The notes under the pieces were generated by a model. That model saw only the letters and a list, made by a program, of their open reading frames with translations. It ran no database searches and was not told where the DNA came from. The position numbers and the translations under genes were made by a program. From positions 100,274 to 164,273 of the forward strand of contig JAHCML010000007.1 of NCBI GenBank assembly GCA_019192455.1: a stretch of 64,000 bases of DNA, read 5' to 3'. Shown here piece after piece: positions 38,678 to 58,110 of the stretch (the stretch's first letter is position 1; every line of letters begins with the position of its first letter). This DNA is from Alphaproteobacteria bacterium SS10 (GTDB taxonomy: Bacteria > Pseudomonadota > Alphaproteobacteria > TMED2).

Positions 38678-39838
38678 ATGTCTGAGAACCAGGTTTCTAC
38701 CGACACCCCGATCCCAGCCGGCACTTCTGTCACCGACCTTGCCACCGCAGAGGTTCAGGCCGCTGAGTCTTCGCTGTCGCCAGATCCGGCGGTGGTGGCA
38801 AAGATCCGTGCCGATATCGACCTGCAGGACCGGGCGCAGCTGATCTCGTTCGGTGATAATGCCCAGCGCGAAGTGGCGGCGTTCGCCGACCGTATCCTGT
38901 CGCAAACCCTGACCAAAGATTCCGGGCCGGTTGGCAACCTGCTGAACGACATGATGCTTAAGGTTAAGGGCCTGGACCCTAAGAGCCTTGAGAAGCTTGG
39001 CTTCTTCGAGCGGATCTTCGGCGGGGTGAAGGCCAAGGTTGAGAAGTTCAAATCCCAGTTCACCGATGTGGCAGCACAGATTGATCGGATCGCCCTAGAG
39101 CTCACCAGCCAGCAAGAGGTGTTGAAGCGCGATATCGCCATGCTTGATGGCCTTCATGAGAAGAATATGGAGCAGATGAAGGACCTTGAGGCCTACATCG
39201 TTGCCGGTACGGAGTATCTGGAAGAGGCCCGTAAGACCCTAATCCCAGAGCTTCAGAAAGCTTTCGAGGCGGCCGGTGAAGGCGCTGAAGGCCAGCTGGC
39301 AGCACAGAAGTTAAGCGATACCCGCCAGGCATTGGAGCGGTTTGAGAAGAAGATCCACGATCTAAAATTGAGCCGGGTAATCGCCTTGCAGGCGCTGCCG
39401 CAAATCCGTTTGGTTCAAAGCGGTAACGCTACCCTGGTTGAAAAGCTGCAAAGCTCGGTCGCGACCACCATTCCAACCTGGAAGAACCAGATGACCATTG
39501 CCCTGGCGATCCATCGCCAGCGCGAGGCGTTGGAGCTTCAGAAAAATGTGTCTGAGGCGACCAATAAGATGCTGCAAGAGAATGCCGAGACACTGCGCGC
39601 TGGTACGGTTGAGATCGAGCGTGAGAGCCAACGCGGCATCGTCGATATCGAGACCCTGACCAAGGTGAATGACGAGCTGATCGGCACGATCAACGATGTG
39701 CTGCGCATCCAGGAAGAGGGCCGCCAGCAACGTGCGACCGCTGAAACTGAGATGAAGCGCATCGAGGGTGAGCTGAAAGAGACCCTGGCCCAAGCCAAGT
39801 CTCGCCAGCTTGAGGGCGGTGATGAGGCCAGCGCCTAG
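38678..39838 (+). CDS. TelA family protein (toxic anion resistance)
   Basis: Starting at ATG 38678, the 386-residue protein is a predicted long helical cytosolic protein matching TelA: AQLISFGDNAQREVAAFADRIL, NLLNDMMLKVKGLDPKSL, GFFERIFGGVKAKVEKFKSQF and PELQKAFEAAGEG. TelA homologues are linked to tellurite resistance and are thought to act at membranes, but biochemistry is not settled. It is first in an operon with the next three genes (gaps 2, 51 and an overlap). Confidence 0.84.
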   Translation: MSENQVSTDTPIPAGTSVTDLATAEVQAAESSLSPDPAVVAKIRADIDLQDRAQLISFGDNAQREVAAFADRILSQTLTKDSGPVGNLLNDMMLKVKGLDPKSLEKLGFFERIFGGVKAKVEKFKSQFTDVAAQIDRIALELTSQQEVLKRDIAMLDGLHEKNMEQMKDLEAYIVAGTEYLEEARKTLIPELQKAFEAAGEGAEGQLAAQKLSDTRQALERFEKKIHDLKLSRVIALQALPQIRLVQSGNATLVEKLQSSVATTIPTWKNQMTIALAIHRQREALELQKNVSEATNKMLQENAETLRAGTVEIERESQRGIVDIETLTKVNDELIGTINDVLRIQEEGRQQRATAETEMKRIEGELKETLAQAKSRQLEGGDEASA

Positions 39839-39840
39839 GG

Positions 39841-41490
39841 ATGTCTAACCAGGATCGGAATTTAGCGCGGAAGGGCGGTCGCCGTTCCCCACGTCTCTTG
39901 GTGTTGATGACCTTGGTCGCTGGTTTGGCCATCGCTGGCCCAGTTCTGGCCGACTTATTCGCCTCCCTAACCGCGCCCGGTCCGGGCAAGCTGGGACGTT
40001 CCTTCATCATCACCTCAGGCTCTGAGAATAAGAGCCTGGAACCCATCGTCATGGAGTTCTGTGACGATGCCGGCGTGATGTGTGAGGTGCAGTATCAGGG
40101 TTCCCTCGATATTGGGATGGGTGTCTCACAAGGTCAGGCCGTTGACGCGGTTTGGCCAGCCAATGGCATTTGGATTGACCTGTTCGACCGGGCCAGGCGG
40201 GTTAAGCATCTGGCCTCAATCAGCCGTTCGCCTGTGATCCTTGGTGTGCGCCGATCCAAGGCAGAGCAGTTGGGCTGGGTCGATAACCCAGTAAAGATGG
40301 CCGACATCGTTGCCGCGGTTGAGAGTGGCGATCTCCGCTTTCTCATGACCTCGGCAACCCAGTCGAATTCGGGTGCCGGTGCGTATCTCGCCATGCTGGC
40401 GGCGATGGCCAGTGGTGACCGGGCCCTGACAGCTGACGATTTGAATGCCGATGCAATTCAAGAAGAGGTGCGTGGTCTGTTGCGGGGTGTGGCAAGGACC
40501 TCTGGCTCCTCCGGTTGGCTGCGTGATCTGTTCCTAAAATCCGATGCTGAGGGCGTCCGCTATGACGCCATGTGGAATTACGAGGCGATCCTCGCCGAGA
40601 CCAATCGTGAGCTGCGGCAACGTGGGGCCGAGCTGCTGTGGGCTGTCTATCCTGAGGATGGCGTCGCCTTTGCCGATAGCCCGCTAGGGTTTGTCGACCG
40701 GGAGCAGCCGCCCGAGTTTGAAGAGTTCTTTCTCGAGCTTCAGGCCTATCTGTTGAGTGAGCGGGTGCAGAACCAACTGGTCGCTGCTGATCGCCGTGTT
40801 GCCCTGGGTCGAGCCGATGCCATCGCTCAGCCGGATGAGAGCTGGAACTTTGATCCGACGCGGTTTGTTAATGCGATCCGGATGCCGGAGCCCGATGTGG
40901 TTCGTGAGGCCCTAACGCTTTATCAGGAAGCGCTGCGCCGGCCGTCACTAACCGCCTATTGCCTGGATTTCTCCGGCAGTATGCAGGGCCAGGGAGAGGC
41001 TGACCTTAAGCAGGCGATGAGCTTGTTGCTGCGGCCCGAGCGCGCTCGTGAGGTGTTGATCCAGGCTGGGTCCCGTGACCGCTTGATGGTTATTCCGTTT
41101 GATAACAGGCCACGCCAAGTGTGGACCGGTCGTGGCACTGAGGCTGATCAGGCGCAACTCCTCTCCCGGGTAAACCGGGAGGTCTCTGGCGGTGGTACGG
41201 ATATCTACGCCTGTGCCGCGCGTGCGCTGGAAGAGATGCAGCAGATCGATGATTTTGAGAACTATCTACCGGCGATTGTGCTGATGACCGATGGGGCCTC
41301 CGATGGCAGCTTGGCCAGGGTCGCAAACGTTCGAACGGGTGTGGTCAGCCGGGTGCCAATCTTTGGCATCACCTTTGGCAACGCAGAGCGGGCGCAGCTT
41401 GACCAACTCGCGGTTGAGACGAGCGGCCGGGTTTTCGATGGCACTAAGTCGCTGGTCCGTGCGTTCCGTACGGCGAGGGGCTACAACTAA
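39841..41490 (+). CDS. Substrate-binding-like protein fused to a VWA domain
   Basis: The 549-residue protein has an N-terminal hydrophobic segment (RLLVLMTLVAGLAIAGPVL, residues 19-37) as signal anchor, a solute-binding-protein-like region (about residues 50-345) with SFIITSGSENKSLEP and VQYQGSLDIGMGVSQG, then a VWA domain. The MIDAS motif is complete: DFSGS at residue 376, GGGTDIY near 455 and TDGASDG near 483. VWA domains often bind partners through a metal ion. It sits two bases after telA and is followed by the xpaC-like gene. Confidence 0.72.
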   Translation: MSNQDRNLARKGGRRSPRLLVLMTLVAGLAIAGPVLADLFASLTAPGPGKLGRSFIITSGSENKSLEPIVMEFCDDAGVMCEVQYQGSLDIGMGVSQGQAVDAVWPANGIWIDLFDRARRVKHLASISRSPVILGVRRSKAEQLGWVDNPVKMADIVAAVESGDLRFLMTSATQSNSGAGAYLAMLAAMASGDRALTADDLNADAIQEEVRGLLRGVARTSGSSGWLRDLFLKSDAEGVRYDAMWNYEAILAETNRELRQRGAELLWAVYPEDGVAFADSPLGFVDREQPPEFEEFFLELQAYLLSERVQNQLVAADRRVALGRADAIAQPDESWNFDPTRFVNAIRMPEPDVVREALTLYQEALRRPSLTAYCLDFSGSMQGQGEADLKQAMSLLLRPERAREVLIQAGSRDRLMVIPFDNRPRQVWTGRGTEADQAQLLSRVNREVSGGGTDIYACAARALEEMQQIDDFENYLPAIVLMTDGASDGSLARVANVRTGVVSRVPIFGITFGNAERAQLDQLAVETSGRVFDGTKSLVRAFRTARGYN

Positions 41491-41541
41491 CCCGGCTGGA
41501 TAATCCGGCTTTACTCTCCTCTTTCCAATGCCAGGGACGGC

Positions 41542-42174
41542 ATGGCGACACGTGGACCATTAGCAGACAACCGGGATCTGATTGCCGGGATTGGCGGTGG
41601 CGGCTTTGCCCCGTTGGCGACCTTTGTCTTCGATTTGCCGCTCTATGCCACGCTACCTGGTGCGATCTTAGTTTTCATCGGCCTTCGATTAATCCTGGCG
41701 CCTAAGACATTCTTTGAGGATTTGCCGACCGGCAAGTTTGCCAAGGCACGGGTTGATCTGGCGCGCGATGTCCTGGTGAAGGCCGATCGCGCCCTATCCG
41801 AATTGGCGCAAACCGCTGAGGTAATCCGGCAGGAGCATGTGCAAGAGCAATTGCTGCACCTTCACCGGATTGCGACCGATATCTCGATTGAGGTCGAGAA
41901 AGATCCAGGGCGCCTTAACCAGGTGCAGCGCCTGCTGACCTATTACCTCCCGGCGGCGAGCCGGGTGGCGACCGGCTATGCGGCACTGGAACGGAAGTTC
42001 TCACCCAATGAAGAGCGGGTGATTGAGGCGCAAGTGATGATTGAGCGCCTGGATCAGGTGTTTAGTGAATATGCCGATCGGTTGGTGATGCCAGAGGTTG
42101 AGAATTTGGATATCGATCTGCAGTTGCTGGATGATGCCATTCGCGATGAGGGCCTGGAACGGGTGCGATCATGA
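41542..42174 (+). CDS. XpaC-like membrane protein
   Basis: The 210-residue protein has a hydrophobic segment near residues 24-46 (LATFVFDLPLYATLPGAILVFIGLRLIL-like) and a helical C-terminal part with ARDVLVKADRALSELAQTA, EKDPGRLNQVQRLLTYYLPAA and QVFSEYADRLVMPEVENLDI. This matches the XpaC family named from 5-bromo-4-chloroindolyl phosphate hydrolysis, often coupled to TelA. Its stop overlaps the start of the next gene (ATGA). Confidence 0.74.
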   Translation: MATRGPLADNRDLIAGIGGGGFAPLATFVFDLPLYATLPGAILVFIGLRLILAPKTFFEDLPTGKFAKARVDLARDVLVKADRALSELAQTAEVIRQEHVQEQLLHLHRIATDISIEVEKDPGRLNQVQRLLTYYLPAASRVATGYAALERKFSPNEERVIEAQVMIERLDQVFSEYADRLVMPEVENLDIDLQLLDDAIRDEGLERVRS

Positions 42175-43289
42175 AGATAACGCGTCGACATATGGGTTTC
42201 GGCCTTCTGGCCGCTGGTATTGGCGGTACGGCAGCCTACTCCGTCCTTGATCAGGGCGGCGATTTTGGCGCGCTGATCGGCACCAGCCATGGCGACCCCG
42301 TTGATCTTTGGGGTTTCATCGGTGGTGAGAAATCGGACTTTGTCCGCAATCCTGAAATCACCCGTATCCTAGATCGTACCTATGGCATCAACCTCGATGC
42401 TCGCCGGGCCGGATCGGTTGAGATGGTCCGTGATCCGGGGCTGTTCAGCCAGCGTCCAGACTTCCTGTGGCCCTCCAGCGCCGTCATGGTCCAGATGGCA
42501 CGACAGAGTGGCGTCGGCGTCCGCCGGGATCAGGTGATCTTTAACTCACCGATTGTGATCTATAGCTGGCTGCCGATCGCTCAGGCTCTAGTCGCAAGCG
42601 GTATCGCGGAAGAGCGGGCGCCTGACTTCTTTGTTGTTGACCCGGCCAGCCTGATTGATGCGGTAACCGGCGGTAAGGCCTGGTCAGCACTTGGCATTGA
42701 TCAGCTGTTTGGTCAGGTGATTGTCAGCTCAACCGACCCAACCAAATCCAATAGTGGCTTCATGTTCGCCGGGTTGGTTGCGAACCTGCTGTCCGGTGGT
42801 GTGGCAACGCCGGATAGCATTGGCGGCCATCTCGACACCCTGGACGATCTGTTTGAGCGCATGGGCTACAAGGAGCATTCGAGCGGTAAGCTCTGGGATA
42901 GCTTCCTGAATGAGGGGATGGGCGGCCGCCCCATGGTGGTTGGCTATGAGAACCAGCTGATTGAATTTGTCCTCGGCCAGCCCGAGGCTTGGGCGCGGAT
43001 CAAGAACTCACCCATGCGTCCAGTGACGCTTTATCCAGAACCAACCGTCTACTCTGCCCATCCGTTGATCAGCTTGAATGAGCCAGCCGACCGTCTGATT
43101 GCCGCGCTTGAGGATGATGCAGTTCAATCCCTAGCGTGGTCGGCTCATGGTTTCCGGGGCAAGCTGGGTGGGGCCGGTAGTGCCGATCTCGGTATTGCGG
43201 GTGTTCCGCAGCAGCTGAACCAGATTGCGCCAATGCCCGATGCGGCGGTGATGATGACCATCCTCGAGCGCCTCTCACGCCGGGCCTAA
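42171..43289 (+). CDS. Periplasmic substrate-binding-like protein
   Basis: The start overlaps the xpaC stop; 372 residues. The N-terminus has a twin-arginine-like signal (TRRHMGFGLLAAGIGGTAA). The mature protein resembles a type 2 periplasmic binding protein: DLWGFIGGEKSDFVRNPEI, DQVIFNSPIVIYSWLPIAQAL, IVSSTDPTKSNSGFMFAGLVANLL. It resembles the solute-binding part of the VWA gene two genes upstream, so the operon may have two related periplasmic sensors or receptors. No membrane permease is encoded beside it. Confidence 0.66.
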   Translation: MKITRRHMGFGLLAAGIGGTAAYSVLDQGGDFGALIGTSHGDPVDLWGFIGGEKSDFVRNPEITRILDRTYGINLDARRAGSVEMVRDPGLFSQRPDFLWPSSAVMVQMARQSGVGVRRDQVIFNSPIVIYSWLPIAQALVASGIAEERAPDFFVVDPASLIDAVTGGKAWSALGIDQLFGQVIVSSTDPTKSNSGFMFAGLVANLLSGGVATPDSIGGHLDTLDDLFERMGYKEHSSGKLWDSFLNEGMGGRPMVVGYENQLIEFVLGQPEAWARIKNSPMRPVTLYPEPTVYSAHPLISLNEPADRLIAALEDDAVQSLAWSAHGFRGKLGGAGSADLGIAGVPQQLNQIAPMPDAAVMMTILERLSRRA

Positions 43290-45257: not shown

Positions 45258-45905
45258 CTAGGGGCGCGATAGGGCCCTATCGGCCAGGGCAGCCTTTAGC
45301 GAGGCGCGGTCATCGATATCTCCCGCCGGGCGAATAAGGCCAACCCGTGTACGGCTTCTGCCGTGTGTTGAGAGACGTGCGGCCGTCGCATCCCGGGTTG
45401 TTTTTGCTGACCACTGAATGCCGTCCAGCGATGGCAGCTTGGTCAAGGCGCCACCACGCCAACCGATCAGCCAGAAACCTCCATCATCAGCAGGTCCCAG
45501 CACAAAATCGTTCCGTCTAAGGCTGTCTAGCGCAGCAGAAATATCGGTTGCCCTAATCCCCGGCAGATCGCTGCCGATGATGAGGGTGGGGCGCCCCAAT
45601 TCACCAAACTGGGCTAGCAAGCTGCGCATTCGGTGGCCGAGATCGCCATCGGCCTGGATCATCACCGGCAGGGCTTGGAACCGGGGGTGTGAAACCGCTG
45701 TCCGGTATTCCTTTGAGCTCGCTAACGCGATCACTAGCTGAGTTGAAGGCAGGCGCCGTAATCGATGGGTTAGGCGATCCAGGCTATGGCGTTGGACCCT
45801 AGCGGCCGTGGCTGGTGAGGTTTCAGCCGCCAATCGGCTTTTACCCTGCCCCAGCTTTGGCCAGCGGGCCATGATGACCAGCGTCGCTCTATGCCGACTA
45901 GCCAC
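45258..45905 (-). CDS. DUF2064 / TIGR04282-like glycosyltransferase
   Basis: The 215-residue protein has the N-terminal GT-A-like pattern VIMARWPKLGQGKSRLA, a long first domain, and GSDLPGIRATDISAALDSL and VLGPADDGGFWLIGW, signature of the DUF2064 family found beside TIGR04283 glycosyltransferases. The TIGR04282/TIGR04283 pair has been assigned to arsenosugar or related glycan synthesis in some genomes, but no arsenic methyltransferase is visible here. It overlaps the next gene by eight bases on the same strand. Confidence 0.76.
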   Translation of the reverse strand: MASRHRATLVIMARWPKLGQGKSRLAAETSPATAARVQRHSLDRLTHRLRRLPSTQLVIALASSKEYRTAVSHPRFQALPVMIQADGDLGHRMRSLLAQFGELGRPTLIIGSDLPGIRATDISAALDSLRRNDFVLGPADDGGFWLIGWRGGALTKLPSLDGIQWSAKTTRDATAARLSTHGRSRTRVGLIRPAGDIDDRASLKAALADRALSRP

Positions 45906-46599
45906 GGGCAGTCCCTTTGCCTTTGTAGCGGTTGGCGATCCTCTCTACCGGAACGCCGCGCCAATGGTCGAACAGGCAGCGCAGGTTGCGAAGCACACGC
46001 CTGGCATAGCCATCACGCTGGTAGCGATCGGCGGATGTCATAATCTCAGTTGGTAGTTGCCGGATAACCCGCCGCCCGGCCTTCTCTTTCAGCGCGTTGA
46101 TGAGCATCACATCCTCCATAAGGAGCGCCGGCTGAAACCCGCCGCTGGCATGGTAGAGGCTCATCTCAATCAGTAGGCCTTGGTCGCCATAGGGCAGGCC
46201 AAACCATTTGGTTCGCCAGTTGGCCCCAGCGGCAACGAGTGCCGGGCGCCACCCCTTCGCATCAAACCGTAGCTTGGCTACGCCAGCCTGTCCTTGATGC
46301 GCCTCGGTGTGTTCTATGACAGCCGCGCCAAATCCCGCGGGCAAATGACTATCCGCATGCAAGACTAGCGTCCAATCAGTGCTGATGTCTTTCGCGCCCA
46401 CCTTTAGCTGAATGCCCCGCCCCGCAGCGCTGGTGGTCAAGGTTGCGCGGCCCTCGCAAAGCGCCTGGGTGCCGTCGCTTGAGCCACCATCCACCACCAT
46501 CACAGGTTGGCCTGGTAGTTCTCGCGACAGATCATCCAGCAGCCTTGGCAGCTGCTTGGCGGCATTCAGTGTCGGGATCAGAATTGTTACCTGGCTCAT
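45898..46599 (-). CDS. TIGR04283-like family 2 glycosyltransferase
   Basis: The start at ATG 46599 (MSQVTILIPTLNAAKQL) gives 233 residues. The GT2 core is seen: VMVVDGGSSDGTQ, and a C-terminal LHADSHLPAG, where the metal-binding motif sits (HADS), followed by FGLPYGDQGLLIEMSLYHASGGF. It lies immediately downstream in the same transcript as the DUF2064 gene and is divergent from the NifU-like gene. Confidence 0.78.
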   Translation of the reverse strand: MSQVTILIPTLNAAKQLPRLLDDLSRELPGQPVMVVDGGSSDGTQALCEGRATLTTSAAGRGIQLKVGAKDISTDWTLVLHADSHLPAGFGAAVIEHTEAHQGQAGVAKLRFDAKGWRPALVAAGANWRTKWFGLPYGDQGLLIEMSLYHASGGFQPALLMEDVMLINALKEKAGRRVIRQLPTEIMTSADRYQRDGYARRVLRNLRCLFDHWRGVPVERIANRYKGKGTARG

Positions 46600-46653
46600 C
46601 AAGACCTGGTCTTCGGGGTGGTAAAGCCGTGAAGGCAACGCCATTCTATACCC

Positions 46654-47091
46654 ATGCGCGACACCGATCTGAACCAACTTTATAGCCGCCAAATTCTTGA
46701 CCTTGCGGCGTCGATCGACCGGACCGATCCATTGACGGATGCCGATGCGAGTGCGCGGGTGACGAGCCCGGTCTGTGGCTCGCGGATTGAGGTCTCCCTT
46801 AACCTCACCAATGGGCGGATATCTGATTACGGGCAGAAGTTGCAGGCCTGTGCCCTGGGGCAGGCCTCGGCCGCCATTATGGCCCGCCATGTGATCGGCA
46901 GCGACAGGGTAGCGGTGGAGGCGGCCCTGGACGATCTCGACGGTATCTTGGCCGGTAAGGCCGATGCTGATCAGATGGATTGGCCAGAGCTTGCGCTGCT
47001 CGCGCCGGTTCATGAGTTTCCGGCACGGCATGGCGCTGTTCGGCTGCCATTCCTGGCAACCCTAAAGGCGCTGGATAGCGTTACTCGCTAG
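46654..47091 (+). CDS. NifU-like iron-sulfur cluster scaffold protein
   Basis: The 145-residue protein has the scaffold pattern: VTSPVCGSRIEVSLNLTNG with the first cysteine, QKLQACALGQASAAIMARHVIG with the second, and HEFPARHGAVRLPF near the C-terminus. The third cysteine of classical NifU/IscU is not present in the same place (RH-x2-VRLPF), as in the DUF59-adjacent family of iron-sulfur scaffold proteins in alphaproteobacteria. Its 3' end overlaps that of a convergent sulfotransferase gene. Confidence 0.74.
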   Translation: MRDTDLNQLYSRQILDLAASIDRTDPLTDADASARVTSPVCGSRIEVSLNLTNGRISDYGQKLQACALGQASAAIMARHVIGSDRVAVEAALDDLDGILAGKADADQMDWPELALLAPVHEFPARHGAVRLPFLATLKALDSVTR

Positions 47092-48052
47092 CTGGCGTCT
47101 CGAGTGAGTAGCCACGACGCTCCAGGTGGTCACCGGCAACGCTGTGGATCAGTTCAATGTGGCGGGGCTCAAACGTATTGACCCAATCGCCAACCACGCC
47201 TTTGCGGAAGAAGCTGTCACGGTTCTCTTCACCGCGCTTGCGACCCTCTGACAGGCGCTCGAAAGAGCCGCCATAGACGCATTTACCGACCGCTTCCTCG
47301 CTCGTATCCACCTCGAGGAACTCAAGGACGGTCTTCATGGTCTCTTCAGGGTTTTGATGCAGATCTTCATAACGGATCTGATGCATCGTGCCGGGGTGGT
47401 TTTTGTCATAGCGAGCGCAGTCATCTTGGACTTTGACCCAGTTCTTTACGAACGGCTCAACAACCTGGTCCGGATCCTCACGCTTATTCGGGTTCAAGCC
47501 CTCGCGGTACAGGCGCTGAGCCTGGTGGAAGGTCGAGGCGCAGGCATCGCGAACGTCACGGGTGATGGTGACGAACTTGGCCTGTGGGAACACCAGTTTG
47601 AAATACTCAAGGGAGGCGGTGTAGAGCGGTGTCTTATCGCCAATCCATTTGGCGGTTGGCTTGATGTCAGCACTCAAAATCACCATGCCGATCATGGTGC
47701 GCAGAATGAACTGCATATCCCGCTGACGCAGCGCCTCGGTGTAGGTCGCATCGCCGTCCTTGTAGATGAAGCCGTTGGTCTGCTTCATCTTCGCATTATA
47801 GGCGCGCAACAGGTCGTGCAGCGGACGACCGAGCCAATCTGAGAAGTGCCCCTCACCACCACAATGGATTTCTGGATGGTGGTTCAGTGATAGCTGCAGC
47901 CAGGTGGTTCCGCTCTTCGGGGCGCCGCAGACAAACAGCATCGGTCGCTTCAGGATCTCGGCGATCTGTTCTTGATAGGCATCAAAAAAGGCTGGGAAAT
48001 CTTTATTGCTGTTGGGCAGTTCTTGCATGGCGCTGGCTTGGTCTAAAGGCAT
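47081..48052 (-). CDS. PAPS-dependent sulfotransferase
   Basis: A 323-residue protein with the sulfotransferase 5'-phosphosulfate-binding loop PMLFVCGAPKSGTTWLQ near residues 38-54, HPEIHCGGEGHFSDW, and 3'-phosphate-binding loop FVTITRDVRDACASTFHQAQ. It should transfer a sulfuryl group from PAPS. The acceptor cannot be inferred. Its gene ends eleven bases within the NifU-like gene; a start at the later Met (48028) is possible. Confidence 0.8.
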   Translation of the reverse strand: MPLDQASAMQELPNSNKDFPAFFDAYQEQIAEILKRPMLFVCGAPKSGTTWLQLSLNHHPEIHCGGEGHFSDWLGRPLHDLLRAYNAKMKQTNGFIYKDGDATYTEALRQRDMQFILRTMIGMVILSADIKPTAKWIGDKTPLYTASLEYFKLVFPQAKFVTITRDVRDACASTFHQAQRLYREGLNPNKREDPDQVVEPFVKNWVKVQDDCARYDKNHPGTMHQIRYEDLHQNPEETMKTVLEFLEVDTSEEAVGKCVYGGSFERLSEGRKRGEENRDSFFRKGVVGDWVNTFEPRHIELIHSVAGDHLERRGYSLETPASE

Positions 48053-48402: not shown

Positions 48403-50832
48403 ATGAGTGGAACGATCGGTAACGATACCATTGCAGGAACCAGCGGTGCTGACATCCTGAACGGCCTTGCTGGCTTTGACAGCATCGTCGGCGGTGACGG
48501 CAATGACACGATTGATGGTGGCGCTGACGGCGACACGATCCGCGCTGGCGCCGACGCAGACAGCGTCAACGGTGGTTCTGGTAACGATAGTCTGGATGGC
48601 AGCACTGGCGCTGACACGATGATCGGTGGCACCGGCTCCGACATCATTGATGGCGGCGACGGCGATGACATTTTCGATCCAAACACTGGTGTCGATAATG
48701 ATGGTGGTAATGACACCATCTATGGCGGTGCCGGTAATGACCTAATCACCAGCCGAGAGGGCGATGACCTCGTCTTTGGTGGCACCGGCAATGACGCCAT
48801 CACCATCGGTGATAACGACACTGTCTATGGCGATGATGGTAATGACATCATTACCGAGTTTGTTGAGACCCCGGGCTTCGACAACCAGATTATCTATGGC
48901 GGCGCGGGCAACGACACGATCAACCTGGCGAATGATGCTGACACCGTTTTCGGTGACGCTGGCGCAGACCTAATCAACGGTTCCAGCGACGGTGATGTGC
49001 TTTACGGCGGCGATAATGTGACCTTCGCCGATGCCTTTGATGTCATCGTCACCGAGGGCGACACCATCTATGGCGGCGCCGGTAATGATCTAATCTTCGG
49101 CGGTGGTGGCTCTGACACCCTCTATGGTGGTGACGATATCGACACCTTCGCCGGTACGCTGGCGGAGTTTGATGGCGATCGCCTGGCCGATTATTCGGCT
49201 GCTGACGCGCCTAATTTCCTGCCCGCTGAGGTGATCCGTATTACCGATCAAACCTCTCTCAGTGCGGCGGATATTGATTTCAGTCGCTCTGGTGGTGTGA
49301 CCACACTGACCATCAATGACGGGGTCGCAGATCGTGAGATCAACATTGTCGGTGATTTCAGCCTGGAATCGATCGTCAATGGCGAGATTCGCCTGCAAGG
49401 GCCGAGTGCTACCGCCAATGAGTTTTCAAACATTCTCGATGGAACCGGTGCCGCTGACACAATCAATGGTGAGGGCGGAAACGACCTGATCTATGGCTTT
49501 GATGGCAATGACTCCCTGATCGGTGGTGAGGGCAATGACGAGGCCTATGGCGGCAATGACGCCGATGTCCTTACCGGTGGTTCCGGCGATGACCGGCTGT
49601 TTGGTGATGCCGATGCCGACATTCTGATCGGTGGCACTGGCAATGACGTGCTCGACGGTGGCGCAGGTGCTGACAATCTGGATGGTGGAACCGGTGCCGA
49701 CGTCCTGAATGGCGGCGGTGGTGCCGATACCATTGTGGCCGGCGATGCGGATACCCTTTCCGGTGGTGCCGGGGCTGACACCTTCGCCCCAGATGCGGCC
49801 ACGGTGAACGCCACGATTGACGATTTTGCCATTGGCGATGTCATCGACTTCTCAGTCCTGGGCCAATCGGTCGAAGATGTGAATGATATCGACATCACGG
49901 TGATACCCGGGGCGGTTCAGATCTCCTTTGAATCGCTGGTGCTGACCTTGCTGTCGGCGTCCCCTTCCACATTGGCGACATCGATTGCCGCCAACGCATC
50001 GACGACCTTCCAATTGGCCCCTGATGGCCCACCGCCGAGTGGCACGCCAACCGATGGTGATGATGTCATCATCCTGCCCGATGGTACCACCTCCATTGAT
50101 GGTGGCGCTGGCAATGACGACATCACCGGCGGCACCACCGCAGACAGCATTCTGGGTGGTGACGGTGAGGACACCGTGAACAGCGGTGACGGCAATGACA
50201 CCGTATTCGGTCAGGAAGATAGCGACGTTATCGACGGTGGTGCGGGTGCTGATGTTGCCTATGGCAACACTGATGAGGACACGCTGAACGGCGGTGACGG
50301 CAATGACAGCCTGTTCGGTGGTCAGGATGATGACGCCATTAGTGGCGGCGTCGGCGATGATCGCCTGTTTGGTAACAAGGGCGAGGACAATATCGCCGGC
50401 CAGGACGGCAACGATGTCGCCTATGGTAACCAGGGCAATGACACCCTAGACGGCACCGTTGGGGCCGATACGCTCTTCGGTGGTCAGGGCAATGACAACC
50501 TGTTCGGTAATGTCGGCAGCGACCAACTCTTCGGCAATAAGGGCGATGACACGCTGGTCGGTGGTGACGGCAATGACTTCCTGTTCGGTCAGGTTGGCAA
50601 TGACGTCCTAACCGGCAATTCCGGCGGTGATGTCTTTGTCGTCAATGGCAGCGGCGCGCAGACGGATCGGGTTACCGACTTCAATGCTGCTGAAGGTGAC
50701 CGCATTGATGATGGTGGCGTCGCAATCAACGGTATCATCGAAACCGGCGGTGACACGGTCATCAACTTTGCTGGTGATGTGACTGTGATCCTTGAGGGGG
50801 TCCTCGGCTTCGACACGGCCTTCATCATCTAG
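48403..50832 (+). CDS. RTX (hemolysin-type calcium-binding) repeat protein
   Basis: The 809-residue protein has no N-terminal signal peptide and many nonapeptide repeats of the form GGxGxDxLx (GGDGNDTIDGG, GGAGNDLI). The repeats fall in three blocks (about 48403-49130, 49441-49780 and 50050-50630), separated by non-repeat domains (49141-49430 and 49781-50040). The C-terminus (DRVTDFNAAEGDRIDDGG, then VTVILEGVLGFDTAFII) resembles the type I secretion signal with Asp followed by hydrophobic residues. It is therefore a probable type I secreted calcium-binding protein; no secretion genes are seen in the window. Confidence 0.86.
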   Translation: MSGTIGNDTIAGTSGADILNGLAGFDSIVGGDGNDTIDGGADGDTIRAGADADSVNGGSGNDSLDGSTGADTMIGGTGSDIIDGGDGDDIFDPNTGVDNDGGNDTIYGGAGNDLITSREGDDLVFGGTGNDAITIGDNDTVYGDDGNDIITEFVETPGFDNQIIYGGAGNDTINLANDADTVFGDAGADLINGSSDGDVLYGGDNVTFADAFDVIVTEGDTIYGGAGNDLIFGGGGSDTLYGGDDIDTFAGTLAEFDGDRLADYSAADAPNFLPAEVIRITDQTSLSAADIDFSRSGGVTTLTINDGVADREINIVGDFSLESIVNGEIRLQGPSATANEFSNILDGTGAADTINGEGGNDLIYGFDGNDSLIGGEGNDEAYGGNDADVLTGGSGDDRLFGDADADILIGGTGNDVLDGGAGADNLDGGTGADVLNGGGGADTIVAGDADTLSGGAGADTFAPDAATVNATIDDFAIGDVIDFSVLGQSVEDVNDIDITVIPGAVQISFESLVLTLLSASPSTLATSIAANASTTFQLAPDGPPPSGTPTDGDDVIILPDGTTSIDGGAGNDDITGGTTADSILGGDGEDTVNSGDGNDTVFGQEDSDVIDGGAGADVAYGNTDEDTLNGGDGNDSLFGGQDDDAISGGVGDDRLFGNKGEDNIAGQDGNDVAYGNQGNDTLDGTVGADTLFGGQGNDNLFGNVGSDQLFGNKGDDTLVGGDGNDFLFGQVGNDVLTGNSGGDVFVVNGSGAQTDRVTDFNAAEGDRIDDGGVAINGIIETGGDTVINFAGDVTVILEGVLGFDTAFII

Positions 50833-56074: not shown

Positions 56075-57796
56075 TTAAGGCTTGGACGCCACCGCCGTTG
56101 ATAGGCTGGTGCTGCCGCTCAAAGTTGGTTCTTCCGCAACGTCACTGCGTTGAGGCTCTGTCGCCCCTGGCGTTGGTAGGCCATCGCGGTCCAGTACCGC
56201 ATGGGCAATTGCCGTCAGGTGCGAGTGGATGCGGCGCAGATCGCGGATGATGTCGACATGCAGGCTTGAGCTCTCAATCGTCGCACTGTTACCGGAGACG
56301 AGGCGCTGAAGGTGCGCATCATAGCTCTCCCGCTCCATCTGCCGCATGGCTGCCTTACGCTCCAATAGATCATGCGCCAGATCCCGGTCCCGGGTGGTGA
56401 ACACACCAATGGCCAGATCAAGGCTTGAGCAGACATTCATGTGCAGCGCTTCAATCTCGGCGATCCCAGCATCTGAGAAATCGACCCCGGCCTTACGCTT
56501 CTTCTCAGCGAGGTCCATCAGGTTCTTATCGATGATGTCGCCAGCATGTTCGAGATTGGTGACGAAGGTGATGATCTCCATCGCCCGCTCGCTCTCTTCA
56601 GGTTCCAATTCCTCAAATGAGATTTGTGTGACGAAGAGTTTGATACGCCCATAGAGCTGATCGAGGGCGTCATCTGCCTCCCGGATGCGGTCGACGGTGG
56701 CGGCATCATTGGTGCGGATGGCGGCCATGCTTTGGTGCAGCATGCCGGATAGTTGGTCAGCCATGCGTCGGCTTTCCCGCGTGGCACCGGCAATCGCGAC
56801 CACAGGCGCATCCAGCGTGCGTTCATCCAGATAGAGCGGTGTGCCAGGGGTTTCGCCAATCGGCTCATCCGGCATCATCTTGGTCAGGATGCGGGCCACG
56901 GCAAAGCACCAGGGCAGGGCGATCAGGGACAAGATCAGGTTAAAGCCAGTGTGGAAGTTCACGACCTGGCGCGCTGGGTCAGCCTCGATAAGAGGCAGGT
57001 AGTTGAGCGCGATAGGTAGCAGCGGCAGGGCGATGACAACGCCAATAATCCGAACCAGGGCGTTGGCTGCTGGCACACGGCGACCCGCTGTCTCGTAAGA
57101 GCTGCTGGCAACAATCGGGGCAATCACGCCGCCCAGATTGGCACCTAGGACCAGCATCAGGGCTGCTTCCATTGGCAGGGCACCGCCGGCACTGATCGAC
57201 ATAACCAGCAGCACGGTCGCCAGGCTGGAATGGGCAAGCCAGGTAACAATCGCGGCAAAGACCAGGCACAGCAGCGGCTCACCTGCCATGGCTTGCAGCA
57301 GTTGCACCATGATTGGGTGACTGCGCAGCGGATCGGTCGCCTCGGTAATCAGGCCGAGGGCGAGGATTAGAAGGCCCAGGCCAATGGCAATCCGGCCAAA
57401 GTGGCGCTTGGGGTCATGCTCATACCGGCGATAGACGATGTAGCCGACGAGAATACAAACCGGGGCCAGCCAATCGACCTTGAACGACAAAATCTGGGCA
57501 GCCAGCGTCGTGCCCACATCCGCACCCAGCATAATCGCCAGGCCAGCCGCCGTGGTAACGGCGCCCTGCCGGGCGAGGGAGGCAACGATGAGGGAGGTTG
57601 CGGTGCTGCTTTGCAGGCCACAGGTCACCACCACACCACTGAGATAGGCAGTGATGGGATTGCGGGCGGCAATGCCGACGAGATCATGCAGACGGCTGCC
57701 CATGGCGCGGGTCATGCCGGTGCGGATCATGCGGATCGACCATAGAATCAGGACGATGCCACCTAGAAGCCAGATTAGAGTCTCAGAGCCGTTCAT
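56075..57796 (-). CDS. Na/Pi cotransporter family protein with PhoU-like domain
   Basis: The 573-residue protein has an N-terminal membrane domain with two inverted motifs: TCGLQSSTATSLIVASLARQG and WLAHSSLATVLLVMSISAGG, the QSS-type motifs of NptA/YjbB family sodium-phosphate cotransporters. The C-terminal half (about residues 340-530) is helical with PhoU-like patterns such as RIREADDALDQLYGRIKLF and ESERAMEIITFVTNLEHAGD. It exports or imports phosphate with sodium. It converges on the amidase gene with three bases between the stops and is divergent from prfC. Confidence 0.84.
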   Translation of the reverse strand: MNGSETLIWLLGGIVLILWSIRMIRTGMTRAMGSRLHDLVGIAARNPITAYLSGVVVTCGLQSSTATSLIVASLARQGAVTTAAGLAIMLGADVGTTLAAQILSFKVDWLAPVCILVGYIVYRRYEHDPKRHFGRIAIGLGLLILALGLITEATDPLRSHPIMVQLLQAMAGEPLLCLVFAAIVTWLAHSSLATVLLVMSISAGGALPMEAALMLVLGANLGGVIAPIVASSSYETAGRRVPAANALVRIIGVVIALPLLPIALNYLPLIEADPARQVVNFHTGFNLILSLIALPWCFAVARILTKMMPDEPIGETPGTPLYLDERTLDAPVVAIAGATRESRRMADQLSGMLHQSMAAIRTNDAATVDRIREADDALDQLYGRIKLFVTQISFEELEPEESERAMEIITFVTNLEHAGDIIDKNLMDLAEKKRKAGVDFSDAGIAEIEALHMNVCSSLDLAIGVFTTRDRDLAHDLLERKAAMRQMERESYDAHLQRLVSGNSATIESSSLHVDIIRDLRRIHSHLTAIAHAVLDRDGLPTPGATEPQRSDVAEEPTLSGSTSLSTAVASKP

Positions 57797-58110
57797 ACTT
57801 GCCCTTGTTATTGTTGCGGCGTTGGGTTTTGGAGATCAGCGGCGCCAAGTCGTTGCTTGAAAACGGAAAAGCTGACCTTCAAATCACTTCGTCAATAATA
57901 ATGACCAAAAATGCAACGCATTTTTCATCTAAGTCATTGCAAAACGCGAATTTATTAGTCGCGTCAATTGACGATTTAAGATGTCAGCTTCTTATGAATG
58001 TTACAAGTTTGTGACAAGCATTTTTTTGAAAAAGTGCTGGGATAAGTGGCGAAACCGATGCTGGAAACGCGCACTGGCATCCGGCGGTGGAACGGGCTAA
58101 AACCCGCGCC
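57797..58110. promoter_or_regulatory. AT-rich divergent intergenic region with palindromes
   Basis: This 314-bp gap is much richer in AT than its surroundings and should hold promoters for both the phosphate transporter and prfC. It has an AAAAATGC-AAC-GCATTTTT hairpin (57907-57925), a CGTCAATTGACG palindrome (57962-57973), and a Pho-box-like direct repeat (ATGTTAC and TTGTGAC, period 11 bp, 57998-58015) that matches the consensus weakly. Functions are inferred. Confidence 0.4.

Follow-up and report, generated by a model that had tools for sequence, protein, structure and literature searches.

In the genome of Alphaproteobacteria bacterium SS10, a stretch of 64,000 nucleotides (contig JAHCML010000007.1, positions 100,274 to 164,273; hereafter the window) harbors a unit of four genes on the same strand, which fill positions 38678-43289 and are called T, V, X and S in this order (Table 1). 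The genes are separated by 2 bp (T/V) and 51 bp (V/X) or overlap by 4 bp (X/S). T belongs to the TelA family PF05816 with 364.4 bits at a cut-off of 30 (E 6.7e-109, model positions 2-331 of 332) and X to the XpaC family PF10112 with 66.9 bits at a cut-off of 29.8 (E 3e-18, model positions 7-190 of 191). V matched the Pfam families SBP_bac_11 (PF13531, E 2.3e-9) and VWA (PF00092, E 1.4e-8) and gave a weak VWA match in NCBIfam; no match of S was obtained in Pfam. An earlier reading of the locus, made from the DNA letters and referred to here as the sequence-only reading, had described four packed genes for TelA, an XpaC-like protein and two binding-like proteins, one with a VWA domain and a complete metal ion-dependent adhesion site (MIDAS), and the open reading frames, the Pfam matches, the folds and the MIDAS residues agree with this description.

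Table 1. Genes, domains and motifs of the T-V-X-S unit, with their positions in the window.
Feature	Position	Strand	Description
T	38678..39838	+	TelA-family cytosolic helical protein, 386 aa; PF05816
V	39841..41490	+	Solute-binding domain fused to VWA, 549 aa; PF13531, PF00092
V solute-binding domain	39991..40938	+	Residues 51-366; nearest folds are sulfate-binding proteins
V VWA domain	40939..41481	+	Residues 367-547; PF00092/PF13519/PF13768; VIA Z 21.5 to 9c4f chain I
MIDAS DxSxS (D376, S378, S380)	40966..40980	+	From sequence alignments
MIDAS threonine T453	41197..41199	+	From sequence alignments
MIDAS aspartate D484	41290..41292	+	From sequence alignments
X	41542..42174	+	XpaC-family protein, 210 aa; PF10112; hydrophobic stretch at the N-terminus, followed by a helical domain predicted to be cytosolic
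S	42171..43289	+	372 aa; the other binding protein, paralogous to the binding domain of V; without a Pfam family
S N-terminal twin-arginine-like signal/anchor (TRRHMG...)	42171..42257	+	Motif in the window S

In the AlphaFold model of V (predicted local distance difference test, pLDDT, 77.3), the best VIA matches of the binding domain were the sulfate-binding proteins 1sbp (Z 26.7, root-mean-square deviation 2.7 over 281 residues) and 5um2 (Z 26.6). The MIDAS residues of the VWA domain (DxSxS at 376-380, T453 and D484) were invariant in all nine V sequences of an alignment reaching three phyla, in which D454, adjoining T453, was variable, and across 32 dereplicated sequences their conservation was 95% or higher. 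Judged from these alignments, the VWA domain has a complete MIDAS and is predicted to bind a metal. The N-terminus of the window V contains a hydrophobic signal or anchor (residues 19-37), and no lipobox cysteine was found in it. Lipobox and twin-arginine motifs were scored in 84 of 88 loci, the anchor motif being unmatched in the remaining four, and a lipobox cysteine was present in 82 of the 84 V relatives. The V protein of the window is probably held by a signal-anchor rather than being a lipoprotein.

The model of S (mean pLDDT 80.9) was most similar in VIA to the thiamin-binding protein 2qry (Z 23.5, root-mean-square deviation 3.1 over 275 residues) and to 5um2 (Z 22.9), and both S and the N-terminal domain of V are, by their models, predicted to adopt the type-II periplasmic binding protein fold. 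When the profiles of S and V were compared with each other, the first alignments gave 96.3% and deeper ones 98-99%; with the widest alignments, hhalign gave 99.3% across 319 columns. The alignment spans the full binding domain, and both proteins have the motifs SNSG and SSG, a YE pair and a WP turn in common. A search of PDB sequences with the S profile yielded no binding protein at E values up to 1. That S and V merely share a general binding fold was rejected, as this missing match in the PDB stands against the 99.3% obtained with V. S is a private paralogue of the V binding domain. The sequence-only reading had rightly seen two binding-like proteins and had missed both their mutual paralogy and the phosphate sites described below.

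An N-terminal [ST]RRx motif was present in 81 of 84 S relatives, and S is predicted to be exported by the twin-arginine pathway. No hydrophobic segment was detected by hydropathy in T of the window and of 22 relatives, whereas X, examined in 33 sequences, begins with a hydrophobic region resolved into one to three segments, after which comes a long helical domain. From these N-terminal signals and hydropathy profiles we infer that V and S lie outside and T inside the membrane.

Named genomes were scanned with the V alignment, which resulted in 490 relatives, and the best 80 were taken for a survey of the loci. In 75 of them the genes T-V-X-S are found in this order, and in one more with S in three pieces; three loci contain V-X-S and one contains V alone near a contig end. 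X and S accompany V in 79 of these best 80 relatives, and T is also present in 76. Rhizobium leguminosarum is among the carriers. A less biased sample consisted of 398 genomes drawn across the phylum Pseudomonadota, in which the S profile and the V profile each matched nine genomes and these nine were identical. The genome of the window was the sole genome of its order in the searched set. TelA was found in 14 of 14 genomes with V and S that were tested, compared with 35 of 385 alphaproteobacterial genomes; it is located inside the unit in 12 of the 14 and elsewhere in two (G265 and G674). XpaC was found in 22 alphaproteobacterial genomes, 21 of which also have TelA, and the exception (G369) scored below the XpaC cut-off.

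The order of the genes changes in more distant units. It is V-X-S-T in genome G211 and, each in another class, S-T-V in G556 and S-T-V-X in G699, where T is TelA by Pfam and X reached 103 bits with the X profile, a score that is not independent since the profile already included this sequence. Using tblastn over 72,556 plasmid records, S was detected in 8, V in 7 and both in six. The order is S-T-V-X on plasmids of Sphaerotilus and Variovorax and S-V-X on that of Deinococcus, X being judged in these three by length, position and N-terminal hydrophobic stretch. A plasmid of Nonomuraea carries S-T-V-X with an open reading frame recognized as TelA-like by eye and alignment and a weak match to X (17.8 bits). 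Rearranged units reach other proteobacterial classes, Actinomycetota and Deinococcus. That the set stays constant while the order of its genes changes argues for a joint function. On plasmid 2 of Variovorax sp. SRS16 (L145), the unit has a flotillin/OB-fold pair on one side and a Wadjet JetA gene on the other. A homologue of S was also seen on a plasmid of Streptomyces sp. NBC_01450 (L144:6770-7999), where V, T and X were not recognized nearby, and a homologue of V on a plasmid of Miltoncostaea oceani (L157:5809-7515), surrounded by hypothetical proteins and close to a sigma factor.

TelA and XpaC also occur together in operons that lack V and S. In four of five such alphaproteobacterial loci that were fetched at length (L044, L045, L047 and L048), proteins with Band-7/GYF and zinc-ribbon domains adjoin TelA, whereas this pair was found in none of the nine V/S loci of the same comparison. 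As Band-7 and zinc-ribbon proteins take the place of V and S, the data suggest that T and X are a core served by different modules; these operons share TelA and XpaC with the unit, but differ from it in their partners and in having no PHO box. The genome of the window contains a second XpaC-like gene with no TelA beside it (L040:8773-9594, contig C4), which is followed by genes for an FkbM-type methyltransferase and a MatE transporter.

Band-7 and zinc-ribbon proteins are described to accompany PspA as well in Bacillus (PMC11237479). In Firmicutes, TelA and XpaC are members of envelope-stress regulons. The xpaC-yaaN operon of Bacillus subtilis, which like the unit encodes an XpaC-family membrane protein and a TelA protein, is a core sigma-W operon; it is listed there as xpaC-yaaN alone, without binding proteins or VWA, and under sigma-W rather than PhoB control (PMC3498285). 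Further, xpaC is stated to be up 7-fold with a liaR mutation (PMC10269926). Listeria lmo1966-1967 likewise lie in an envelope-stress regulon, and the lmo1967 mutant is reported to be more sensitive to nisin and to change only 2-fold for tellurite (PMC12791056). For Lactococcus, the link of TelA/XpaC to envelope stress is uncertain (PMC7864038). No paper joining TelA-XpaC with binding or VWA proteins or with PhoB was found in the open-licence PubMed Central text available, so a published account of the phosphate link may exist.

Several known proteins resemble V and S in part. The V of Variovorax bears the NCBI annotation 'substrate-binding and VWA domain-containing protein', which is a name only, and a literature query for this phrase found nothing. 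The VWA domain of V matched calcium-channel alpha2delta subunits by sequence (E 2.7e-5), which is an analogy only: like V, these subunits are tethered to the membrane and combine a VWA/MIDAS domain with a region that binds ligands outside the cell, but this region has a Cache fold and the partner is a different one. Among binding proteins of the type-II fold, 6lkg, whose title is that of a two-component signal-transduction protein and which we take to be the sensor HptA, was matched by V with a VIA Z score of 24.7 and by S with one of 21.1, and the sugar-phosphate binders AfuA and VcA0625 have the same type of fold. HptA, AfuA and VcA0625 are not known to contain a VWA domain, and their partners are a histidine kinase or a permease instead of TelA-XpaC.

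Repeats of CTGTCAT are visible upstream of the units, and PHO boxes were scored with an assumed consensus (maximum score 28). A score of at least 22 was reached by 53 of 87 units in comparison with 6 of 626 control genes from these loci, and a score of at least 24 by 33 of 87 units in comparison with 0 of 626, the 87 units being those with at least 300 bp upstream, with one genome (Zavarzinia, L032 and L049) counted twice. Sites of at least 22 were present in 27 of 32 Rhizobium, three of three Devosia and two of three Bradyrhizobium loci, as well as in single loci of Bosea, Caulobacter, Neorhizobium, Zavarzinia and others, and their distance to the start of the profile match of the first gene varies from about 28 to 186 bp. 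In Sphaerotilus the operon starts with the phosphatase gene phoX (PF05787), 4 bp before S, with a PHO site of 23 upstream. Two findings serve as positive controls: in the PhoU-linked cluster of the window genome, a gene for 363 residues has a site of 23 before it, and strict sites in the related genomes G611 and G443 precede phytase-like and PhoU_div genes, and also a sulfatase-fold gene and a family-5 binding protein gene. The five XpaC-TelA operons without V and S, used as negative control, scored 16-17. Since these operons have no PHO box, the boxes go with V and S and not with TelA. Genome-wide, the strict pattern was as frequent as its control in the window genome (7 vs 7) and nearly so in G042 (9 vs 8); therefore, only scored sites before named genes or the units were used. 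The unit appears, from these upstream sites, to belong to the PhoB regulon in many alphaproteobacteria and one betaproteobacterium.

Other promoter types were considered as well. EcfG-type promoter patterns upstream of T showed no excess (2 of 82 vs 1.05 expected) and neither did heat-shock-type patterns (1 vs 2.1 expected). Promoter- and terminator-like sites in the window were equal to shuffles, and no RNA element was found when looked for. Elsewhere in the window, a Na+/Pi cotransporter with a PhoU domain is encoded at 56075-57796 (-), with a PHO-like site about 200 bp upstream at 58000-58017, the only one of at least 22 in the whole window. On contig C5 of the same genome (L162:512-1659), a PHO-like site lies 60 bp upstream of an ArsC gene, which is followed by an aquaporin-family gene.

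The four genes of the unit include no permease or ATPase, and the unit is not an ATP-binding cassette (ABC) transport operon. Among 115 flanking proteins of 30 sampled loci, no permease family was matched by more than one protein; ABC ATPase domains were present in three and a branched-chain-type permease in one. Nor does a permease recur beside the unit in three annotated plasmid regions. The commonest flanking families, among the 25 of 81 listed, which include every family with two or more members, were EipB-like proteins (5/115) and ribosomal protein S2 (4/115), both of which were seen in a Rhizobium locus. The sequence-only reading had named two findings that would refute it, a conserved permease gene in homologous operons and a lack of joint conservation of the four genes; both were looked for and neither was obtained. 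The grouping is not due to chance, given V-X-S in 79 of 80 loci and the identical nine of 398 genomes, and it persists across changes of gene order and across phyla.

Because the set is co-conserved and no permease recurs, a complex spanning the inner membrane is a better reading than a transporter. We favor a phosphate-starvation-linked receptor or stress complex of the inner membrane, with about as much confidence as doubt. The physical complex, the ligand class, the direction of signaling and the output at the membrane are the parts of it that we infer. T, V, X and S would form one inner-membrane complex, in which V would be placed on the periplasmic face, as a lipoprotein in most relatives and probably by a signal-anchor in the window copy, with its VWA as a metal-dependent adhesion domain beside the binding domain. 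S would be exported by its twin-arginine-like signal and probably be membrane-anchored, and X would cross or anchor in the membrane and offer its cytosolic helical domain as a docking place for TelA. The V/S pair may be occupied by a ligand, probably a tetrahedral oxyanion or a phospho-compound, and occupancy could alter the contact between V and S via the MIDAS. X would relay this change to TelA, which would then stabilize or remodel the inner membrane; in lineages with the unit in the PhoB regulon, the complex would be deployed when phosphate runs out. In a bolder form, T-V-X-S might be an undescribed trans-phylum receptor, in which V and S sense an external phosphorus compound without transporting it and signal via XpaC to TelA; this we propose tentatively and consider somewhat unlikely. 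The sequence-only reading had seen in the unit no transporter but a sensing or envelope stress complex across the inner membrane. The non-transporter complex is retained here as a proposal, while 'sensing or envelope stress' was too general, because in many relatives the PHO sites indicate phosphate starvation.

Several observations weigh against this reading. The counts over the 80 loci are not independent, because Rhizobium (32) and Mesorhizobium (22) dominate them. Only 7 of 22 Mesorhizobium loci reach a PHO score of 22, and 9 of 24 distinct lineage labels have no such site, including G556 and G699 from other classes, so the unit may be phosphate-controlled in only part of its range. For the window copy itself the best PHO score was 19, a value reached by 21 of 60 shuffles, and no site above 19 was found within 1 kb upstream, while the PhoU-linked cluster and the Na/Pi transporter of the same genome carry sites of 22-23; the upstream sequence of the window copy does not support its control by PhoB. 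The modelled folds of V and S matched binders of iron (ferric), thiamin, polyamine, sugar-phosphate and sulfate, all within a few Z units of each other, and do not single out a ligand class.

The weak site of the window copy and the copies of other classes without a clear PHO box would fit a general envelope-stress module. Here V and S would respond to an antimicrobial or to damage of the envelope, the membrane would be protected by TelA-XpaC as in Firmicutes, and control by phosphate would be a secondary habit of some lineages. EipB-like proteins as the commonest flanking family and the Firmicutes findings summarized above (sigma-W control of xpaC-yaaN, the 7-fold change of xpaC with liaR and the nisin sensitivity of the Listeria mutant; PMC3498285, PMC10269926 and PMC12791056) point in the same direction. 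Against this, PHO boxes precede 53 of the 87 units compared with 1% of control genes, at differing distances, and are absent from the five scored XpaC-TelA operons without V and S, and we regard the general module as rather unlikely. The PHO boxes, together with type-II folds near sulfate and sugar-phosphate binders and PhoX in one operon, would also suit a reading in which an ABC transporter for phosphate, phosphonate or phosphoester is encoded at another place in the genome, V and S being its orphan binding proteins and T and X accessory factors. This is distinctly unlikely given that no permease recurs in the 30 loci or in the three plasmid regions, and that the VWA domain of V and the retention with TelA and XpaC are unlike ordinary orphan binding proteins.

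Tellurite enters cells by phosphate carriers. A protective role could be imagined on this basis, in which tellurite or arsenate enters via phosphate transporters opened by starvation, V and S capture the anion and TelA limits the damage. The name of the TelA family, folds like those of oxyanion binders, the PHO sites and the PHO-like site before the ArsC-aquaporin pair speak for it, but resistance conferred by TelA is weakly supported, the Listeria mutant being reported to change only 2-fold for tellurite (PMC12791056), which leaves this explanation a slim chance. An anti-phage or mobile-element function, suggested by the Wadjet JetA gene near the Variovorax plasmid unit, is hardly credible: PADLOC assigned none of its anti-phage families to any of the four proteins, no phage record carries S, and housekeeping genes such as that of ribosomal protein S2 are neighbors in Rhizobium. 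TelA was the only protein of the unit with a match in PHROGs.

TelA is widespread in bacteria and its role has remained vague behind the label 'tellurite resistance'; a strictly co-conserved unit with a phosphate-starvation signature, present in the laboratory organism Rhizobium leguminosarum, makes questions about it testable. If the bolder receptor reading holds, TelA would gain a defined input, phosphate starvation, and the TelA-XpaC core would take exchangeable sensors, either V/S or Band-7/zinc-ribbon proteins. V and S would then be binding proteins kept for sensing and not for transport, as a duplicated pair of which one copy is fused to VWA.

Downstream of the unit, a row of genes for a DUF2064 protein, a family-2 glycosyltransferase and a sulfotransferase occupies 45258-48052 (-) of the window, and a large RTX protein, containing 19 nonapeptide stretches of the calcium-binding type, is encoded at 48403-50832 (+).

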